Source: Aromatoleum anaerobium
Lineage (GTDB): Bacteria > Pseudomonadota > Gammaproteobacteria > Burkholderiales > Rhodocyclaceae
NCBI RefSeq assembly: GCF_012910705.2
Contig: NZ_WTVG02000035.1
Location: 1-64,000, forward strand
DNA length: 64,000 nucleotides
Direction of reading: 5' to 3'
Part shown: positions 30,307-39,425 of the stretch, one piece after another
Layout of the letters: the number at the start of each line of letters is the position of its first letter
How positions within the stretch are numbered: position 1 is the stretch's first letter
Notes under the pieces: model-generated
What the model was told of the DNA's origin: nothing
Databases searched by the model: none
Seen by the model: the letters and a program-made list of their open reading frames with translations, nothing else
Position numbers and translations under genes: made by a program

Positions 30307-32463
30307 ATGACGCATTCAGCCCCGCTTCATATCTCGAACGATTCCGCGGCGCATGCCGCTGTCAGCATCCTCGGCGTCGCGTCGGCGCTTGGCGCGCCCG
30401 GAAGCGGCCCCGATGCGGGCCCGGCGGCGCTGCAGGCGTCCGGCCTCGTCGCGCGGCTGCGCGGCCTCGGCATCACCGCGGCATGGGAGCAGACGCTGCT
30501 GCCGCACGACTCAGCGGCGCCGGGCGCGTCGATGGAGGAACGCCTGAAGAGCGTCGGCGACCTGGCACGAAGCGTCGCCGACCAACTCGCCGCGCTCGAC
30601 CCGGCGCGCTTCCCGCTGATCCTCGGCGGCGACCATGCGATCGCGATCGGCACCTGGCCGGCGATCGCCAGCCGCGTCGCGGCGCGCGGCACGCTCGGGC
30701 TGATCTGGATCGACGCCCACCTCGACAGCCACACCGACGCCAGCACCCATTCCGGCAACATCCACGGCATGCCGCTCGCGGCCGTGCTCGGCGAAGGCGA
30801 CCCGCTGCTGACCGGCATCCCCGGCCCGCGCCTCGACCCGCACAACGTCTGCATCATCGGCGCGCGCTCGTGGGAGCCGGAAGAGTTCGAGCGCCTGCAG
30901 CGGCTCGGCGTGACGATCTTCGATATGGCGACGATCCGCGAGCGGGGGCTGTCGGCGGTGTTCTCCGACGCGCTCGGCGTCGTGCGGCGCAACACCGCTG
31001 CGTTCGGCGTCACGCTCGATCTCGACGCGCTCGATCCGGCGATCTTTCCGGCGGTGACATGTATCGAAAGCAGCGGTCTCGCGGCCGACGAGCTTTCCGA
31101 CGCGCTGCTCGCGCTACGCGCGTGCCCCGACTTCACGGCATTCGAGATCGTCGAATACGTGCCCGAACTCGATCCGCTCGGCGCGGGCGCCGGCTGGATC
31201 GCCGAATTCGCCGGCGCCGCGCTCGGCCCGGGCACTGCGCTGCTGCGCGCCCAGGAACAGCATTTCGGCGCGCACAACTACGCGCCGCTGCCGGTGGTGT
31301 TCCATCGCGGCAAGGGCGTCTGGCTGTGGGACGTCGAGGGGCGGCGCTACCTCGACATGATGAGCGCGTATTCGGCGGTGAGCTTCGGTCACGCCCACCC
31401 GCGCCTGCTGCGCGCGCTCAACGACCAGGCGCAGCGCCTCGCGCTGACGTCGCGCGCGTATTCGAACGACCGCCTGCCGCTGCTGCTCGAGCGGCTGTGC
31501 GCAATGTTCGGCTTCGAGCGCGCGCTGCCGGTCAACACCGGCCTCGAAGCCGTCGAAACCGCGCTCAAGACGGTGCGCAAGTGGGCGTACAAGGTCAAGG
31601 GCGTCGCGACGGACCGTGCCCAGATCATCGCCTGCCAGGGCAACTTCCACGGTCGTTCGATCGCGATCGTCGGCATGTCGTCGGAGCCCCAGTACCGCGA
31701 CGGCTTCGGGCCGTTCCCGCCCGGTTTCAAGCTGATCCCGTACGGCGACGCCGACGCGCTCGAAGCCGCGATCACGCCGGACACCGCCGCCTTCCTCGTC
31801 GAGGCGGTCCAGGGGGAAGGCGGCATCATCGTGCCGCCGGCCGGTTATCTCGCGCGCTGCGCCGAGATCTGCCGCCGCAACAACGTGCTGCTGATCGTCG
31901 ACGAAGTGCAGACCGGGCTCGGACGCACCGGCCGGCTGCTCGCGTGCGAGCACGAAGGCGTGCATCCGGACGGGCTGATCCTCGGCAAGGCGCTGGGCGG
32001 CGGCCTGCTGCCGGTGTCGGCGTTCCTCGCCGACGCCGCAGTGATGGACGTGCTCCACCCCGGCGACCACGGCTCGACGTTCGGCGGCAATCCGCTCGGC
32101 GCGGCCGTCGCGCTGGAAGTCCTCGACTTGCTCGAGGAAACGCGGCCGTGGGAAAACGCCGCGCGTCTCGGCGAACACCTGATGCGGCGGCTCGCCGACG
32201 GTGCGCCGCCGTGCGTGACGGCGGTGCGCGGCCGCGGCCTGCTGGTCGGCATCGAGCTCGACCCGCGCATCCTCGACGCCGCGACCGGCGCCGAACTGCT
32301 GCTCGCACGCGGCATCGCGACGAAGGACACGCACCACACGGTGTTGCGCTTCGCGCCGCCGCTGGTGATCGACGACGCCGTCCTCGACGCGGGGATCGAC
32401 GTGATCCTCGACACGCTCGCGACTGCGAGCCGCCGCCGCGAGCACGGGCCGTTGCACGGCTGA
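30307..32463 (+). CDS. fusion: arginase-type ureohydrolase + ornithine aminotransferase
   Basis: A 718-residue two-domain enzyme starting at the ATG with GGGAGG five bases upstream. Residues about 17-312 are a ureohydrolase with all metal ligands in arginase positions: His110 (GGDHA), Asp136, His138 and Asp140 (DAHLD), Asp238 and Asp240 (LDLDALDP). The loop after these (PAIFPAVTCIESSGL) differs from the usual AP-TGTP-GGL. Residues about 316-715 are a class III aminotransferase of the ornithine type (FGAHNYAPLPVVF, VDEVQTGLGRTG, PLP lysine Lys561 in GKALGGG). Together they would turn arginine into ornithine and then glutamate semialdehyde, if both keep their expected substrates. A Na+/solute symporter gene follows. 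Confidence 0.93.
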   Translation: MTHSAPLHISNDSAAHAAVSILGVASALGAPGSGPDAGPAALQASGLVARLRGLGITAAWEQTLLPHDSAAPGASMEERLKSVGDLARSVADQLAALDPARFPLILGGDHAIAIGTWPAIASRVAARGTLGLIWIDAHLDSHTDASTHSGNIHGMPLAAVLGEGDPLLTGIPGPRLDPHNVCIIGARSWEPEEFERLQRLGVTIFDMATIRERGLSAVFSDALGVVRRNTAAFGVTLDLDALDPAIFPAVTCIESSGLAADELSDALLALRACPDFTAFEIVEYVPELDPLGAGAGWIAEFAGAALGPGTALLRAQEQHFGAHNYAPLPVVFHRGKGVWLWDVEGRRYLDMMSAYSAVSFGHAHPRLLRALNDQAQRLALTSRAYSNDRLPLLLERLCAMFGFERALPVNTGLEAVETALKTVRKWAYKVKGVATDRAQIIACQGNFHGRSIAIVGMSSEPQYRDGFGPFPPGFKLIPYGDADALEAAITPDTAAFLVEAVQGEGGIIVPPAGYLARCAEICRRNNVLLIVDEVQTGLGRTGRLLACEHEGVHPDGLILGKALGGGLLPVSAFLADAAVMDVLHPGDHGSTFGGNPLGAAVALEVLDLLEETRPWENAARLGEHLMRRLADGAPPCVTAVRGRGLLVGIELDPRILDAATGAELLLARGIATKDTHHTVLRFAPPLVIDDAVLDAGIDVILDTLATASRRREHGPLHG

Positions 32464-32644
32464 GCGCAGCGCGCTTGCGCACTCGGGGACGGGACGACGA
32501 AGTTCGGCACAATCGTCGCCACACTCGTCGGCCCGTTCGCCGGCCCGATCGGGCGCGAATTCGGATCGATTCGGGCGGCCCTCGCGACGAAATTCGTTGC
32601 TAAACTTCGGCCCGCTCAATCCACGTCCCCGGAAGAACCCGCCC

Positions 32645-34111
32645 ATGCTGATCGGCTTCGTCATCGCTTACCTGCTGGTTTCGATCGGCGTCGGGCTGTA
32701 CGCGGCGACGCGGGTCAGGAACACCGCCGACTACGTCGCCGCCGGGCGCCACCTGCCGCTGTACATCGTCACCGCGACGGTGTTCGCGACGTGGTTCGGC
32801 TCGGAAACCGTGCTCGGCATTTCCGCGACGTTCATCGACGAAGGCCTGCGCGGCCTGTGGTCCGATCCGTTCGGCGCGTCGCTGTGCCTGATCCTCGTCG
32901 GCCTGTTCTTCGCGCGCCCGCTCTATCGCATGAACCTGCTGACGCTCGGCGACTACTACCGGCTACGCTACGGGCGCACCGTCGAAGTGCTGTGCTCGAT
33001 CGCGATCGTCGTCTCCTACCTCGGCTGGGTCGCGGCGCAGATCACCGCGCTCGGCCTGGTGTTCAACATCCTCTCTGACGGAGCGATCACGAACGAGGCC
33101 GGCATGATGATCGGCGCCGCGGTGGTGCTGGTGTATACGCTGTTCGGCGGCATGTGGTCGGTGGCGCTGACCGACTTCATGCAGATGATCGTCATCATCG
33201 CCGGGCTGTTCTACATCGCGTGGCTGGTCGGCGACATGGCCGGCGGCGTCGGCACGGTCGTCAGCCACGCGAACGCCGCCGGCAAGCTGAACTTCCTGCC
33301 CGCGCTCGACCCGGCCGACATCATCGCCTTTCTCGCCGGCATCCTGACGATGGGGTTCGGCTCGATCCCGCAGCAGGACGTGTTCCAGCGGCTGAACTCG
33401 GCGCGCGACGAGAAGATCGCCGTGCGCGGCACGCTGCTCGGCGGCTCCGGCTACTTTCTCTTCGCGTTCGTGCCATTGTTCATCGCGTACTCGGCGACGC
33501 TGATTGACCCCGAACTGGTCGCCCGCTACCAGCAAAGCGACAGCCAGCACGTCCTGCCGCAGCTGATCCTCGCGCACACGCCGCTGTTCGCGCAGGTGAT
33601 GTTCTTCGGCGCGCTGCTGTCGGCGATCATGAGCACCGCTTCGGGGACGCTGCTCGCGCCCTCGGTGACCTTCTCCGAGAACATCCTGCGCGGCACGTTC
33701 CGCCACCTCGACGATCGCCAGTTCCTGCTGCTCACGCGGATCATCGTCGTCGCGTTCGCGCTGCTGATCACGTGGTATGCGACATACACCGAGGAGACGA
33801 TCCACGGCATGGTCGAGAACGCCTACAAGGTCACGCTCGCGACCGCCTTCGTGCCGCTCGCGTTCGGCCTGTACTGGAAGCGCGCCAGCACGCAGGGCGC
33901 GCTGGTGTCGATCCTGGCCGGCCTCGTCGTCTGGGTGCTGCTCGAGATCGCCGCCCCCGACGCCGACGTCCCGCCGCATTTCGCCGGCATGCTCGCGGGC
34001 ATCGTCGGCATGATCGCCGGTTCGCTGCTGCCGCAGACGCTGGTCAAGCCCGTCCACGGCCACGTCGCCGCGCACCTGCAGACGCAGCACCAGTCGCACG
34101 CGGGGCGCTGA
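32645..34111 (+). CDS. sodium:solute symporter family transporter
   Basis: A 488-residue SSS-family membrane protein with about thirteen hydrophobic segments. The family pattern is visible in FATWFGSETVLGISATFIDEG near residue 51 (without its first residues elsewhere) and in SIPQQDVFQRLNSARDEKIA near 240, followed by a conserved SAIMSTASGTLLAPS segment. It lies 181 bp after the arginase-aminotransferase gene on the same strand. Uptake of an amino acid or related solute is plausible from this position, but the substrate cannot be read from sequence. Confidence 0.9.
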   Translation: MLIGFVIAYLLVSIGVGLYAATRVRNTADYVAAGRHLPLYIVTATVFATWFGSETVLGISATFIDEGLRGLWSDPFGASLCLILVGLFFARPLYRMNLLTLGDYYRLRYGRTVEVLCSIAIVVSYLGWVAAQITALGLVFNILSDGAITNEAGMMIGAAVVLVYTLFGGMWSVALTDFMQMIVIIAGLFYIAWLVGDMAGGVGTVVSHANAAGKLNFLPALDPADIIAFLAGILTMGFGSIPQQDVFQRLNSARDEKIAVRGTLLGGSGYFLFAFVPLFIAYSATLIDPELVARYQQSDSQHVLPQLILAHTPLFAQVMFFGALLSAIMSTASGTLLAPSVTFSENILRGTFRHLDDRQFLLLTRIIVVAFALLITWYATYTEETIHGMVENAYKVTLATAFVPLAFGLYWKRASTQGALVSILAGLVVWVLLEIAAPDADVPPHFAGMLAGIVGMIAGSLLPQTLVKPVHGHVAAHLQTQHQSHAGR

Positions 34112-34131: not shown

Positions 34132-35184
34132 TCAGTACTGGTCGAAGCAGCGCTGCAGCTCGCCGGCGTCGCGCGAACGGCCGAGCGCGAGCATCAGCAG
34201 GATGCGGGCCTTGTGCGGATTCAGCGAGTTCGCCGCGACGGTGCCGAGCACCGCGTCGTCGGCCGACGCCGTGACCACGCCCTGTCCGACGCGGCTCGAG
34301 CGCACGACCGCGACGCCGTGGCGTGCCGCCTCTTCGGCGCCGGCGCGCGCCGCCGGCGAAAGACCACCGTTGCCGCAGCCGGCAACGACGATGCCGCGCG
34401 CGCCCGCGGAAATCGCGGCGCGATAGTGGTGCAGCCCCGCGCCCTGGTGGTCGTAGAGGATGTCGACGTGCGGCAGCTCACCGATCGCGGCGAGCGAGAA
34501 CTCGCTGTCGACGGTGTGCCGGCACAAGGGCGCGGTGAAGAAATGAACCTTGCCCGCGGCGACTTCGCCGAGGTTGCCCTGCTCGAACGCGCGAAACGCG
34601 TCAGGCACGGTGGTGGCCGCCTTGGTCACGAAGCGCGCGGCGCCGATGCGGTCGTTCATCATCACCAGCACGCCCTTGCCGTGCGCCGCCGTGCAGGTGG
34701 CGACGAGAAAAGCGTTGTACAGGTTCAGCGGCCCGTCGGCGCTCAACGCGGTCGCCGGACGCATCGCGCCCGCGAGCACGACCGGCTTCGCGCTCTTCAG
34801 CACAAGATTCAGGAAATACGCCGTCTCCTCGAGCGTGTCGGTGCCGTGCGTGATGACGATGCCGTCGACATCGGGCTGGCCGAGCAGCGCATCGACGCGG
34901 CGGGCGATCTTCAGCAGCAGCGCATTGTCGATGTCGCGGCTGTCGACATTGGCGAGCTGCTCGCCGCGGACCTCGGCGAGCGTCCGCAGTTGCGGCACGG
35001 CGGCGAGCAGCTCGTCGGTGGTCGCGCCGACGGTGTAGTCGTGGAGCTGCGTCGCCTCGCCCGCCACCGCCGCGATCGTGCCGCCGGTGCCGAGCAGCAC
35101 GATGCGCGGCCGCGCCGGCTGCCCTTCGCCCGTCGCGGCGCGCGATCCTTGTTCCGCTACGCCAGCCGTGTTGCCGGAATTCAT
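34132..35184 (-). CDS. L-asparaginase
   Basis: A 350-residue asparaginase. Both threonine motifs are present: VLLGTGGTIAAVAGE near residue 30 and VITHGTDTLEETAYFL near 108. These, with the later Lys-containing segment, give the two Thr-Lys-Glu/Asp-Thr sites of the family. Sequence style is type II, but no signal peptide is visible at the start I chose (ATG at 35184, GGAGAG upstream), so it is probably cytosolic. It converges on the symporter gene with only 20 bp between stops. Confidence 0.92.
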   Translation of the reverse strand: MNSGNTAGVAEQGSRAATGEGQPARPRIVLLGTGGTIAAVAGEATQLHDYTVGATTDELLAAVPQLRTLAEVRGEQLANVDSRDIDNALLLKIARRVDALLGQPDVDGIVITHGTDTLEETAYFLNLVLKSAKPVVLAGAMRPATALSADGPLNLYNAFLVATCTAAHGKGVLVMMNDRIGAARFVTKAATTVPDAFRAFEQGNLGEVAAGKVHFFTAPLCRHTVDSEFSLAAIGELPHVDILYDHQGAGLHHYRAAISAGARGIVVAGCGNGGLSPAARAGAEEAARHGVAVVRSSRVGQGVVTASADDAVLGTVAANSLNPHKARILLMLALGRSRDAGELQRCFDQY

Positions 35185-35584
35185 CGCACAGGCTCTCCGG
35201 GTTTCGATGCCGGCCATTGTTCGCTTCGGCCCCCGCAAGGTCAAATCACGCCCCTGCCCGGATCGCACGCCCGTCGGGGGCGTCAGCGGGGCGCCTGCCA
35301 CAAAAGTTGCGGCAGCTGTTGCGTGCCTTTCGGGCGACGGCATAAACCCCGCCCGTTTGTTGCAGCCGCGGGAGTTCAACGCTCTCGCGCCATGAAACTT
35401 CTTCCTTGAAATTCATATTGTTGCATCGCCTACCTCGCAGGCGACCGATGCTTTCCGCTTCATATTTTCCGGCGTCCCGAACGGTGCTAGCATCGCTTCA
35501 CGTTAAATTGTTTGATATCAAACATTGATGCCGGACCGGCGATGAACGCACCCGCGGCCGCGGCGATCCGCACAAGGAGGCGAC
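35185..35584. other. divergent promoter region between asparaginase and hcrCAB
   Basis: These 400 bases contain the leaders of both divergent units. The right half is clearly AT-richer (about 35395-35525). It holds one perfect 16-bp palindrome and, before hcrC, the ribosome site AAGGAGG (35573-35579). No further coding frame with support was seen. Confidence 0.6.
35509..35524. promoter_or_regulatory. perfect 16-bp palindrome upstream of hcrCAB
   Basis: TGTTTGATATCAAACA reads the same on both strands without any mismatch. Its centre lies about 68 bp before the hcrC start, in an AT-rich stretch. Its form (TTTGATATCAAA core, no spacer) is like operators of MarR-type regulators of aromatic catabolism, and differs from FNR boxes, which need four bases between the TTGAT/ATCAA arms. 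No MarR gene is in this window, so the regulator is unknown. Confidence 0.65.
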
Positions 35585-36061
35585 ATGAAGACCCTGCTGA
35601 CACTTTCGGTGAATGGCCGGCCGCGCGAGGACGCAGTGGCCGGGAATGCGTTGCTGATCGACTACCTGCGCGACACCCTCGGCCTGACGGGCACGAAGCA
35701 GGGCTGCGACGGCGGCGAGTGCGGCGCCTGCACGGTGCTCGTCGACGGCCAGCCGCGGCTTGCGTGCTGCACGCTCGCGCACAGCGTCGCCGGGCGCTCG
35801 ATCGAGACGATCGAAGGCCTCAGTCACGAGGGCAACCTGTCGCGCCTGCAGCGCGCGTTCCACGAACACCTCGGCAGCCAGTGCGGCTTCTGTACGCCGG
35901 GCATGATCATGGCGGCCGAAGCGCTGCTGCGCCGCACCCCGCAGCCGTCGCGCGACGAGATCCGCGCGGCGCTCGCCGGCAACCTGTGCCGCTGCACCGG
36001 CTACGTGAAGATCATCGAATCGGTCGAGGCGGCGGCCGGCTGCGAGGAGGTGCCGGCATGA
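35585..36061 (+). CDS. hcrC: 4-hydroxybenzoyl-CoA reductase, gamma subunit (2x[2Fe-2S])
   Basis: A 158-residue iron-sulfur subunit. The plant-type cluster ligands are Cys41, Cys46, Cys49 and Cys61 ([12 protein letters not shown]). The second cluster has Cys100, Cys103, Cys135 and Cys137 ([18 protein letters not shown]). The sequence is very close to what I recall of HcrC of Thauera aromatica across its length. It passes electrons from ferredoxin-side partners to the molybdenum site in HcrA. It is first in the hcrCAB operon and its stop overlaps the hcrA ATG. Confidence 0.95.
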
Positions 36062-38439
36062 ACGCGCCCGATCGCGAACTGCGCACGCTCGGCGCGGCCG
36101 CGGCGCCGCGCGGCGTCGGCGCCCGCCTGCCGCTCATCGACGGCGTCGAGAAAGTCACCGGCACGGCCCGCTACACTGCCGACCTGCCGGCCCAGGGCGC
36201 GCTGGTCGGCAAGATCCTGCGCAGCCCCTACGCGCACGCCGAGCTGCTCGAGGTCGACATCAGCGAAGCGCTGAAGCTGCCCGGCGTGCGCGGCATCGTC
36301 ACCGGTGACGACTGCGATACGCCTTACGGGGTGATCCCGATCGCGCAGAATGAATTCCCGCTCGCGCGCGGCCGCATCCGCTATGTCGGCGAGCCGGTCG
36401 CCGCCGTCGCCGCGATTGACGAGGCGACCACCGACGCGGCGCTCGCGCTGATCCGGCTGAAGGTGCGCGAACTGCCGGCCTATTTCGCCGCGGCCGATGC
36501 GCGCAAGGCCGACACTGTGCTGCTGCACGACAACAAGAAAGGCAACATCGAGCGCGAGGTGCACAACGAGTTCGGCGACACCGCCGCCGGTTTCGCAGCG
36601 GCCGACCTGATCCGCGAGGACACCTTCGAGTGCGCCGAAGTCCACCACGCGATGATGGAGCCGAACGCCGCGCTCGCGGCGTGGGACAACGAGCGCGGGC
36701 ACCTCACGCTGTGGTCGGTGACCCAGGTGCCGTACTACGTGCATGAATCGCTGTCGCGCTGCATGAAGCTCGACGCGGCCTATATCCGCGTCATCAAGCC
36801 GTTCGTCGGCGGCGGCTTCGGTCACCGCGTCGAGACGCTGAACTTCGAGATCATCGCCGGGCTGCTCGCCCGCGCGGCACGCGGCACCGTGCGCCTGCTG
36901 CAGACGCGCGAGGAAGCCTTCCTCACGCACCGCGGCCGGCCGCAGACTCAGGTCCGCATGAAGCTCGGCCTGACGCGCGACGGGCGCATGACCGCCTGCG
37001 AGGCCGAGGTCGTGCAGCGTGGCGGCGCGTACGGCGGCTACGGGCTGGTGACTATCCTGTATGCAGGCGCGCTGTTGAACGGCCTCTACGACCTTCCCGC
37101 GGTCAAGTACGACGGCTACCGCGTCTACACGAACAACCCGCCGTGCGGCGCGATGCGTGGCCACGGCACGGTCAACATCCGTTTCGCGTTCGAATCGCTG
37201 CTCGACATGATGGCGGCCGAGCTCGGCCTCGACGTGTTCGCGGTGCGCCGCCGCAACCTGCTCAAGGCGCCAACCGAGACAATCAACGGCCTCAAGGTGA
37301 TGAGCTACGGCCTGCCCGAGTGCCTCGACTGGGTCGAGCAGGCGAGCGGCTGGCGCGACCGCGCCCCCCGGCTCAAGGCGAACGGCGACGGCCCGATCAA
37401 GCGCGGCATCGGCATCGCCTGCTCGCACTTCGTCAGCGGCTCGGCCAAACCGGTGCATTTCACCGGCCAGCCGCACGCGACGATCGCGCTGCGCATCGAC
37501 TTCGACGCCGGCATCACGATCCTCACCGGCGCCTCCGACATCGGCCAGGGCTCGTCGACGATCATCAGCCAGGTCGTCGCCGAGATCCTCGGTGTGAGCT
37601 ACCGCCGCCTGCGCGTGGTCGCGACCGATTCGGCGCTGACGCCGAAGGACAACGGCTCGTATTCGTCGCGCGTCACCTTCATGGTCGGCAATGCGGCGGC
37701 GGATGCCGCGCAGAACCTCAAGCGCGTGCTCGTCGCCGCAGCGGCGAAGCGCCTGCAGGTCAGCGAGGCCGAGGTCGACTGGCTCGGCGAAGCCGCCGCG
37801 GTCGTCGGCGACCCGGCGCGCCAGATCCCGTTCCACGACGTCGTCGAGGAAGCGCTGGTCGGCACCGGCATGCTGACCGTCAAGGGCACTTTCACCTGCC
37901 CGGTCGAGTTCCAGGGCGGCAAGCAGCGCGGCGGCGCGGTCGGCTCGACGATGGGCTTCTCGTATGCCGCGCAGGCCGTCGAAGTCAGCGTCGACACCGA
38001 GCTCGGCAAGGTCACCGTCGACAAGGTCTGGTCGGCGATCGACTGCGGCTTCGCGATCAACCCGATGTCGGTCGAAGGCCAGGTCCAGGGCGCGATCTGG
38101 ATGGGCATGGGGCAGGCGATCTCGGAGGAAACCGTGTATGAGAACGGCCGCCACAAGGCGGTCAGTCTGCTCGACTACCGCGTGCCGACGATCGTCGAAT
38201 CGCCCGACATCGCAGTGCATATCGTCGAGAGCCTCGACCCGAACGGCCCGTTCGGCGCGAAGGAAGCGAGCGAAGGGCCGCTCGCGGGCGTTATGTCCGC
38301 GATCGCCGCCGCGATCGAGGACGCCACCGGCACCCGCATCCAGGCAACGCCCTTCACGCCGGACCGCGTGTTCGACGCGCTGCACCGCAAACCCCGCGTC
38401 GGCGCCCCTGCGCCGGCCACCGCAAAAGGAGAAGCATGA
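36058..38439 (+). CDS. hcrA: 4-hydroxybenzoyl-CoA reductase, alpha subunit (molybdenum site)
   Basis: A 793-residue molybdopterin subunit of the xanthine oxidase family. It would bind the Mo cofactor and reductively remove the para-hydroxyl of 4-hydroxybenzoyl-CoA to give benzoyl-CoA, the central anaerobic aromatic intermediate. Cofactor-binding segments include [10 protein letters not shown] near residue 254, AMRGHGTVN near 364, [13 protein letters not shown] near 497 and the active-site Glu736 in [10 protein letters not shown]. The ATG overlaps the hcrC stop and the stop overlaps the hcrB start, so all three are coupled. A longer upstream reading of the same frame only shadows hcrC. Confidence 0.94.
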
Positions 38440-39425
38440 TGGGCGCGCTGTCCGATTTCAGTGTATTGCGTCCGGCGAGCGCCGCCGACGCGGTCCGCCT
38501 GCGCGGCGAACATCCCACCAGCCGCTTCATCGCCGGCGGCACCGACCTCGTGCCGAACATGCGGCGCGGCCTCGTCAGCACCGATATCGTCATCGACCTC
38601 GGCAACGTCGGGGAGATGCGCGAGCTGCAGCACCAGGGCGGCACGCTGCGCATCGGCGCCGGCGTCACGCTCGCGACGCTCGCCGCCGACCCGAGGGTCC
38701 GCGCGCGCCTGCCGGCCCTCGCCCAAGCCGCACTGTGCGTCGCCGGCCCGACGCACCGCACCGCGGCGACGCTCGGCGGCAACCTGTGCCTCGAAACGCG
38801 CTGCCAGTACTTCAACCAGAGCGAGAGCTGGCGCCAGGGCAACAACTACTGCATGAAGCTCGCCGGCGACACCTGCCGCGTCGCGCCGAAATCGAGCCGC
38901 TGTTACGCCGCCTTCAGCGGCGATGTCGCACCCGCGCTGCTCGCGCTCGGCGCCGAGGTCGAGCTCCTCGGCCCGCAAGGGATCCGGCGCCTGCCGCTCG
39001 CCGAACTCTACGTCGACGACGGCATGCGCTGGCTCGCGCTGGGGGCCGACGAGCTGCTGTTCGCCGTCACCGTGCCGCTCGTCGCCGGCCGGGTCAGCGG
39101 CTACGAGAAGCTGCGCGTGCGCGGCGCGATCGACTTCCCGCTCGCCGGCGTCGCGGTGGTGCTGCGGCGCGACGGCGACGCGCTCGGCGAACTGCGCATC
39201 GCCTGCACCGGTGTGTCGTCGCGGCCCGAATTCGTCGGCGGCCTCGACGCGCTCGCCGGGCAGCCGCTCGACGATGCTGCGTTCGCAGTCATCGAACGCC
39301 AGATCAAGCGCACGATCCAGCCGATGGAAACGACGACCGTCAGCGTGCCGTACCGCCGCCGCGCGACGCCGGTGCTCGCGAAGCGCCTCGTGCGTAGGCT
39401 GTGGGACGAAGCGAAGCGACGCTGA
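38436..39425 (+). CDS. hcrB: 4-hydroxybenzoyl-CoA reductase, beta subunit (FAD and extra [4Fe-4S])
   Basis: A 329-residue FAD subunit of the CoxM/xanthine oxidase type. The FAD loops are [12 protein letters not shown] near residue 31 and the TLGGNL segment near 112. Between them and the core lies an inserted loop with Cys123, Cys139, Cys147 and Cys156, each one residue on from the four cysteines (122, 138, 146, 155) I recall as binding the extra [4Fe-4S] cluster of Thauera HcrB. This loop is what separates true 4-hydroxybenzoyl-CoA reductases from ordinary xanthine dehydrogenases. The start is ATGATG; the first ATG overlaps the hcrA stop. Confidence 0.95.

Follow-up and report, generated by a model that had tools for sequence, protein, structure and literature searches.

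A gene of Aromatoleum anaerobium raises the question of whether hydrolysis of arginine to ornithine and transamination of ornithine to glutamate semialdehyde are entrusted to a single polypeptide, and of how such a protein arose. The gene lies in a window of 64,000 nucleotides (contig NZ_WTVG02000035.1, positions 1 to 64,000), where an initial annotation had read it as an arginase and an ornithine aminotransferase (OAT) joined in one chain, with both catalytic centres complete. Translation and Pfam domain matches bear out this reading: the coordinates, length and residue numbers then given are correct, the 718-residue frame contains no inner stop, and neither a stop nor a frameshift occurs near residue 315. 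The six metal ligands and the PLP lysine are likewise present. The start codon is ATG, with GGGAGGA a few bases upstream. Table 1 lists the features of the locus.

Table 1. Features of the fused gene and its neighbourhood (positions in the window).
Feature	Residues	Position	Strand	Basis
Fused arginase-OAT gene, 718 codons plus stop		30307..32463	+	Translation; domain matches; unbroken in 17/17 genus genomes
Arginase-family domain	18-294	30358..31188	+	Pfam PF00491, 163.1 bits (cut-off 22)
DAHLD metal-binding motif	136-140	30712..30726	+	Alignment to 1cev
Altered loop PAVTCIESSG, replacing PGVGTPVIGG of 1cev	248-257	31048..31077	+	Alignment
Junction	295-320	31189..31266	+	AlphaFold2 model; motif spacing
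Ornithine aminotransferase domain	321-703	31267..32415	+	PF00202 Aminotran_3, 386.7 bits (cut-off 30.5)
PLP lysine codon	K561	31987..31989	+	Translation, alignment
Sodium/solute symporter family transporter, adjoining the fusion		32597..34111	+	TIGR00813, 164.4 bits (below cut-off 184)
Type II asparaginase, facing the symporter gene		34132-35379	-	Above subfamily cut-off
4-Hydroxybenzoyl-CoA reductase, all three subunits		35512-39425	+	TIGR03193, TIGR03194, TIGR03195, above cut-offs

An unbroken fusion frame of 717-720 codons is found in 17 of 17 Aromatoleum genomes, its own included, and four of these genomes consist of one contig, which rules out a sequencing or assembly artefact. The initial annotation named no characterised protein of this form, and none was found in a search of titles and abstract openings in the open part of PMC; the arginase plus OAT architecture may already be listed in some domain database.

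The C-terminal half scores 501.4 bits against the ornithine--oxo-acid transaminase model TIGR01885, above the cut-off of 378.4, and 488.1 bits against NF003145, a narrower model of the same name, below the cut-off of 656. By sequence, its nearest solved OAT is 3ruy (441.2 bits). The equivalents of Y55, Y85, F177, R180, E235, D263, Q266, K292, T322 and R413 (human and rat numbering) are kept in all 34 fused rows aligned. These rows comprise 33 distinct sequences (L008 and L045 are identical); the residue counts and the trees leave out fused near-copies (L005, L006, L010, L012, L014, L015, L016 and L025) and rows from the genome itself (L001, L002 and L125-L128). A Foldseek search of the PDB with the whole predicted model placed 1oat first, with a TM(target) of 0.91; the best 50 of 1807 matches were all aminotransferases and are uninformative on the arginase half.

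The arginase-family domain and its active site

The nearest solved relative of the N-terminal half by sequence is the Bacillus arginase 1cev (145.8 bits). Against TIGR01229, the rocF equivalog, this domain scores 183.3 bits, under the cut-off of 227.6, as do two other fused proteins at 176.2 and 185.9 bits. Its scores against the agmatinase model TIGR01230 (48.9 bits, cut-off 174.3) and the formimidoylglutamase model TIGR01227 (68.6 bits, cut-off 229.15) also fall under their cut-offs. The metal ligands are H110, D136, H138, D140, D238 and D240, and in the alignment they are kept, together with the equivalents of H141, E186 and E277, in 34 of 34 fused rows; E186 and E277 have their equivalents in the window protein as well. 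Aligned to 1cev, loop A has the length seen in arginases and keeps the equivalents of S137 and N139. Among the 34 fused rows, 28 carry S at the former place and the other six T; at the latter, 25 carry N and nine have A, M or R. Overall, the first domain resembles an arginase rather than an agmatinase.

An excerpt of PMC9224512 describes how these loops govern specificity in human arginase. Loop A (129-140) provides the residues for the carboxylate of arginine (N130, S137 and N139), loop B (181-184) holds those for its amino group, and the length of loop A is proposed to decide between arginase and agmatinase. According to the same excerpt, a chimera that combined three exchanges with a shorter loop A had agmatine as its sole substrate, one with N130Y and the full loop length retained 3.5% of arginase activity, and N130D alone allowed agmatine to be accepted as well as arginine (PMC9224512).

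It is at two of these places that the window protein departs from the classic enzyme, with H142 as the equivalent of N130 and E190 as that of D183, as in most of its subfamily. Over the 104 rows of the arginase alignment, the 130/183 pair is HE in 69, ND in 32, NE in 3 and HD in none. The 72 rows with E at the D183 place lie together on one side of a branch that is starred in the tree and are mostly proteobacterial, fused and unfused; they delineate an arginase subfamily in which 69 of 72 rows also carry H for N130. Given the effect of N130D in human arginase (excerpt of PMC9224512), the N130H and D183E exchanges could alter specificity. Since they are common to unfused members of the subfamily, they are independent both of the unusual loop and of the fusion.

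That loop, which follows the metal site, had been described in the initial annotation as unlike classic arginase and taken as a pointer to another guanidino substrate. The first part stands, as the loop does differ in the alignment to 1cev, with C252 occupying the place of mammalian T246. The second part is weakened by the arginase features of loop A and by the distribution of this cysteine, which is found in 17 of the 34 fused rows, namely those of Aromatoleum, Zoogloea and genome G422 (two of the rows come from the same genome). Thirteen of the other 17 keep TP here, five of them as GTP, and the rest have SP, MP, LP or VP.

Arginine metabolism and the favoured substrate

The genome contains two arginase-family matches, the fusion and a formimidoylglutamase (299.2 bits, cut-off 229.15), so a second arginase was rejected. 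Class-III aminotransferase matches number four, and a profile of the fused OATs scores 790 on the fusion, 293 and 190 on others, and nothing further over 150. All 17 genus genomes encode a PutA-type P5C dehydrogenase over cut-off, as well as an ALDH7-type gene located away from the fusion, while arginine deiminase was found in 0/17. Cyanophycin synthetase over cut-off was also found in 0/17, and a role in cyanophycin breakdown was rejected for that reason. With regard to urea, the urease alpha subunit was not found in the A. anaerobium genome and is present in 8 of the 17 genus genomes; urea carboxylase over cut-off was found in none of the 17, its matches spanning only the first ~460 positions. 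Urea would consequently need to be excreted or put to a use outside the enzymes searched; either this is the case, or the failure to find an enzyme that uses urea counts mildly against urea being the product.

Among the 28 fused loci compared, a relative of the symporter lies beside the fusion in eight (6/6 Aromatoleum, G422 and G019); from this proximity, it may share a function with the fusion. The 4-hydroxybenzoyl-CoA reductase genes further downstream fit an aromatics-degrading bacterium. Outside Aromatoleum, an ALDH7-type gene immediately follows the fusion in the same orientation at seven of 22 fused loci (L135, L136, L138, L139, L141, L053 and L118), and at L073 such a gene is divergent. 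NF050084, scanned on five of these seven genes, scores above its cut-off of 730 in four and below it, at 713.4, in L053; for L138 and L118, the assignment comes from a profile built in this analysis. A PrkA-type kinase gene also lies downstream in seven of the 22 loci, named as such by NCBIfam on L134 only and assigned by similarity on L136, L137, L142, L053, L067 and L118. At L134:8115-12898, the genes after the fusion encode a PrkA-type kinase, a protein resembling YeaH/YhbH and a member of the SpoVR family; genes of these types have been linked with nitrogen starvation.

The main rival reading concerns what the first domain acts on. It holds that this domain hydrolyses another guanidino or amidino amino acid, such as N-hydroxy-, N-methyl- or homo-arginine, and supplies the aminotransferase with ornithine or one of its homologues. 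The neighbouring ALDH gene of some fused loci is compatible with it, matching the model of L-piperidine-6-carboxylate dehydrogenase, an enzyme of lysine breakdown. The absence of a detected urease in the A. anaerobium genome, the cysteine in every Aromatoleum, Zoogloea and G422 row, and the prevalence of the HE pair point the same way, as does the influence of position 130 on the specificity of human arginase (excerpt of PMC9224512). Against these points, the ornithine-binding residues of the OAT are unchanged in all 34 fused rows and the TIGR01885 cut-off is exceeded, which makes ornithine the most likely product. Furthermore, the TP of the loop persists in most fused rows from elsewhere, and arginine's carboxylate and amino group could still be accommodated by H and E. 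A changed substrate is considered unlikely, and arginine is favoured.

Selection, junction and origin of the fusion

Both halves of the protein are under purifying selection. Ten close genus pairs, some of which share a row, have dN/dS values of 0.127-0.259 in the arginase half and of 0.079-0.14 in the OAT half, and the ratios are higher in three distant pairs, at 0.255-0.357 and 0.174-0.215, respectively. These ratios bear on a further alternative, that a working OAT carries the remnant of an arginase domain, either dead or regulatory in role. The faster evolution of this domain, with a dN/dS 1.3 to 2.6 times that of the OAT half in each of the ten close pairs, would suit a remnant, and so would the changes in its substrate shell. 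However, the ratio is far below 1, every fused row retains the six metal ligands as well as counterparts of H141 and E277, and length is held to 717-720 codons in 17 genomes, all of which makes a remnant very improbable.

The AlphaFold2 model, built on a 42-row alignment (mean pLDDT 85.7, pTM 0.77), predicts that the last helix of the arginase (293-306) is separated by about three residues from a helix (310-320) leading into the OAT, with block pLDDT values of 93, 83 and 76 across residues 301-330. From the last arginase motif to the first OAT motif, the distance is 44-47 residues in 28/30 fused rows, a count that refers to those of rows L003-L032 in which both flanking motifs were found. That the open frame nevertheless yields two separate proteins, through an inner start or cleavage, so that the fusion is without consequence, is scarcely credible: an inner start could survive, since unfused relatives begin the OAT no more than 30 bases past the arginase stop or overlapping it, but the near-constant spacing and the helical model over the junction argue otherwise.

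The full-length unbroken fusion occurs in 21 of 61 relatives and in 12 of the 399 genomes sampled from the order, the own genome being included in both counts. In a class sample of 369 genomes, seven besides the own genome have both halves divided by stop codons, and in a phylum sample of 398 genomes there is one such stop-divided pair besides it. In the class sample, locus L156 (genome G497), from outside the order, shows a fused frame without a stop, matched from residue 102. A pattern scan covering one genome per species across 84,980 species yielded, among the best 80 of a larger number of matching loci, 12 that are fused; these belong to Aromatoleum diolicum, five Zoogloea records, Azonexus, Oryzomicrobium, Sterolibacterium, Rhodocyclales and two other betaproteobacterial bins.

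Trees were drawn for the arginase (104 rows) and OAT (57 rows) halves. Set against gene-pair rows, the fused label requires 2 changes in each tree, compared with a mean of 10.0 after shuffling; set against all unfused rows, it requires 3 in the arginase tree. Because support is weak for many inner branches and an unfused OAT (L034) is placed among the fused rows, a single origin of the fusion is no more than likely. L034 (genome G351) is a stand-alone OAT, for which a later loss of the arginase half is possible.

An OAT gene adjoins the arginase on the same strand in 12 of the 70 unfused arginase rows (seven with the arginase first and five with the OAT first), and the remaining 58 have no OAT next door in the DNA examined; L063 is counted here as a pair even though a contig end cuts its OAT and its class label in the tree was unpaired. 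The layout was examined at 20 loci, 15 of which are arginase-then-OAT pairs (L063, L070, L075, L079, L082, L108, L122, L154, L155, L157-L161 and L163), 11 of them in frame. As for the other five, L156 is a single frame, no arginase was seen at L164 or L165, and at L043 and L044 the OAT comes first. Near-copies occur among the pairs (L079, L159 and L160; also L082 and L158). In 12 of the 15 pairs, the OAT could begin at the earliest 3 to 30 bases past the arginase stop, and in three its first possible start overlaps the arginase end. This proximity suggests that the fusion probably arose by loss of the stop codon in a rocF-rocD pair. A single in-frame stop was also considered as a sign of readthrough and rejected: eight pairs, from L154-L163, came from a frame-bound search, and among the seven from the DNA-pattern scan, three are in frame (L063, L079 and L082) and four are not (L070, L075, L108 and L122), as by chance.

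The protein is an inherited fusion of two consecutive enzymes, and its mechanism is most likely two known reactions in series. With good though incomplete confidence, it is read as a bifunctional enzyme leading from arginine to glutamate semialdehyde that originated by stop loss in a rocF-rocD pair; both the reactions and the substrate are deduced from sequence. The N-terminal domain, with its two-metal site kept, would convert L-arginine into L-ornithine and urea. The PLP domain would then transfer the delta-amino group of ornithine to 2-oxoglutarate, yielding glutamate-5-semialdehyde and glutamate, and a semialdehyde dehydrogenase (PutA, or the ALDH7-type enzyme encoded beside the fusion in some relatives) would complete the path to glutamate. 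This reading is supported by the domain and equivalog matches, the retained catalytic residues, the arginase length of loop A, purifying selection, the grouping of fused rows in both trees, the gene-pair relatives, the ALDH7-type gene beside the fusion at some loci outside Aromatoleum, and the presence of PutA-type P5C dehydrogenase with no arginine deiminase detected throughout the 17 genus genomes. It is weakened by the score of the arginase domain under the rocF cut-off, the exchanges at the N130, D183 and T246 places, the lack of a detected urease in the genome and of urea carboxylase over cut-off in the genus, the separation of the genus ALDH7 gene from the fusion, and the lack of an adjoining OAT at most unfused arginases in the tree.

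Several known systems offer points of comparison. The first domain resembles RocF-type arginase (EC 3.5.3.1; Bacillus 1cev) in family, metal ligands, loop A length and the guanidinium glutamate, and differs from it in being fused to an OAT, in its TIGR01229 score and in carrying H, E and C at the N130, D183 and T246 places. The second matches RocD/OAT (1oat, 3ruy) in equivalog score, in all ten active-site residues compared and in fold, whereas in the fusion an N-terminal arginase domain precedes it. Unfused arginase-then-OAT pairs share the gene order, side by side, but remain two genes with a stop codon or an overlap between them. Cyanobacterial AgrE, as presented in an excerpt of PMC8262935, also joins two successive arginine-degrading steps in one chain with ornithine as intermediate; it differs in combining an arginine dihydrolase with an ornithine cyclodeaminase, giving ammonium, CO2 and proline.

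Direct transfer of ornithine between the two domains is possible. A bolder version, to which we assign little weight, is that the sites, held at fixed spacing, pass ornithine directly and apart from the pool used for synthesis, and that in Aromatoleum and Zoogloea the hydrolase has shifted to a modified arginine through its cysteine loop. Ornithine is common to arginine synthesis and to breakdown by arginase and OAT, which exposes cells to the risk of a futile cycle. With its almost constant spacing, the fusion is a test case for whether channelling or matched dosage averts such a cycle. Because its relatives span separate genes, gene pairs and the fused form, the step from operon to single protein can be traced. 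In addition, the fusion draws attention to an arginase subfamily whose substrate shell is altered, with H and E in the places of N and D.
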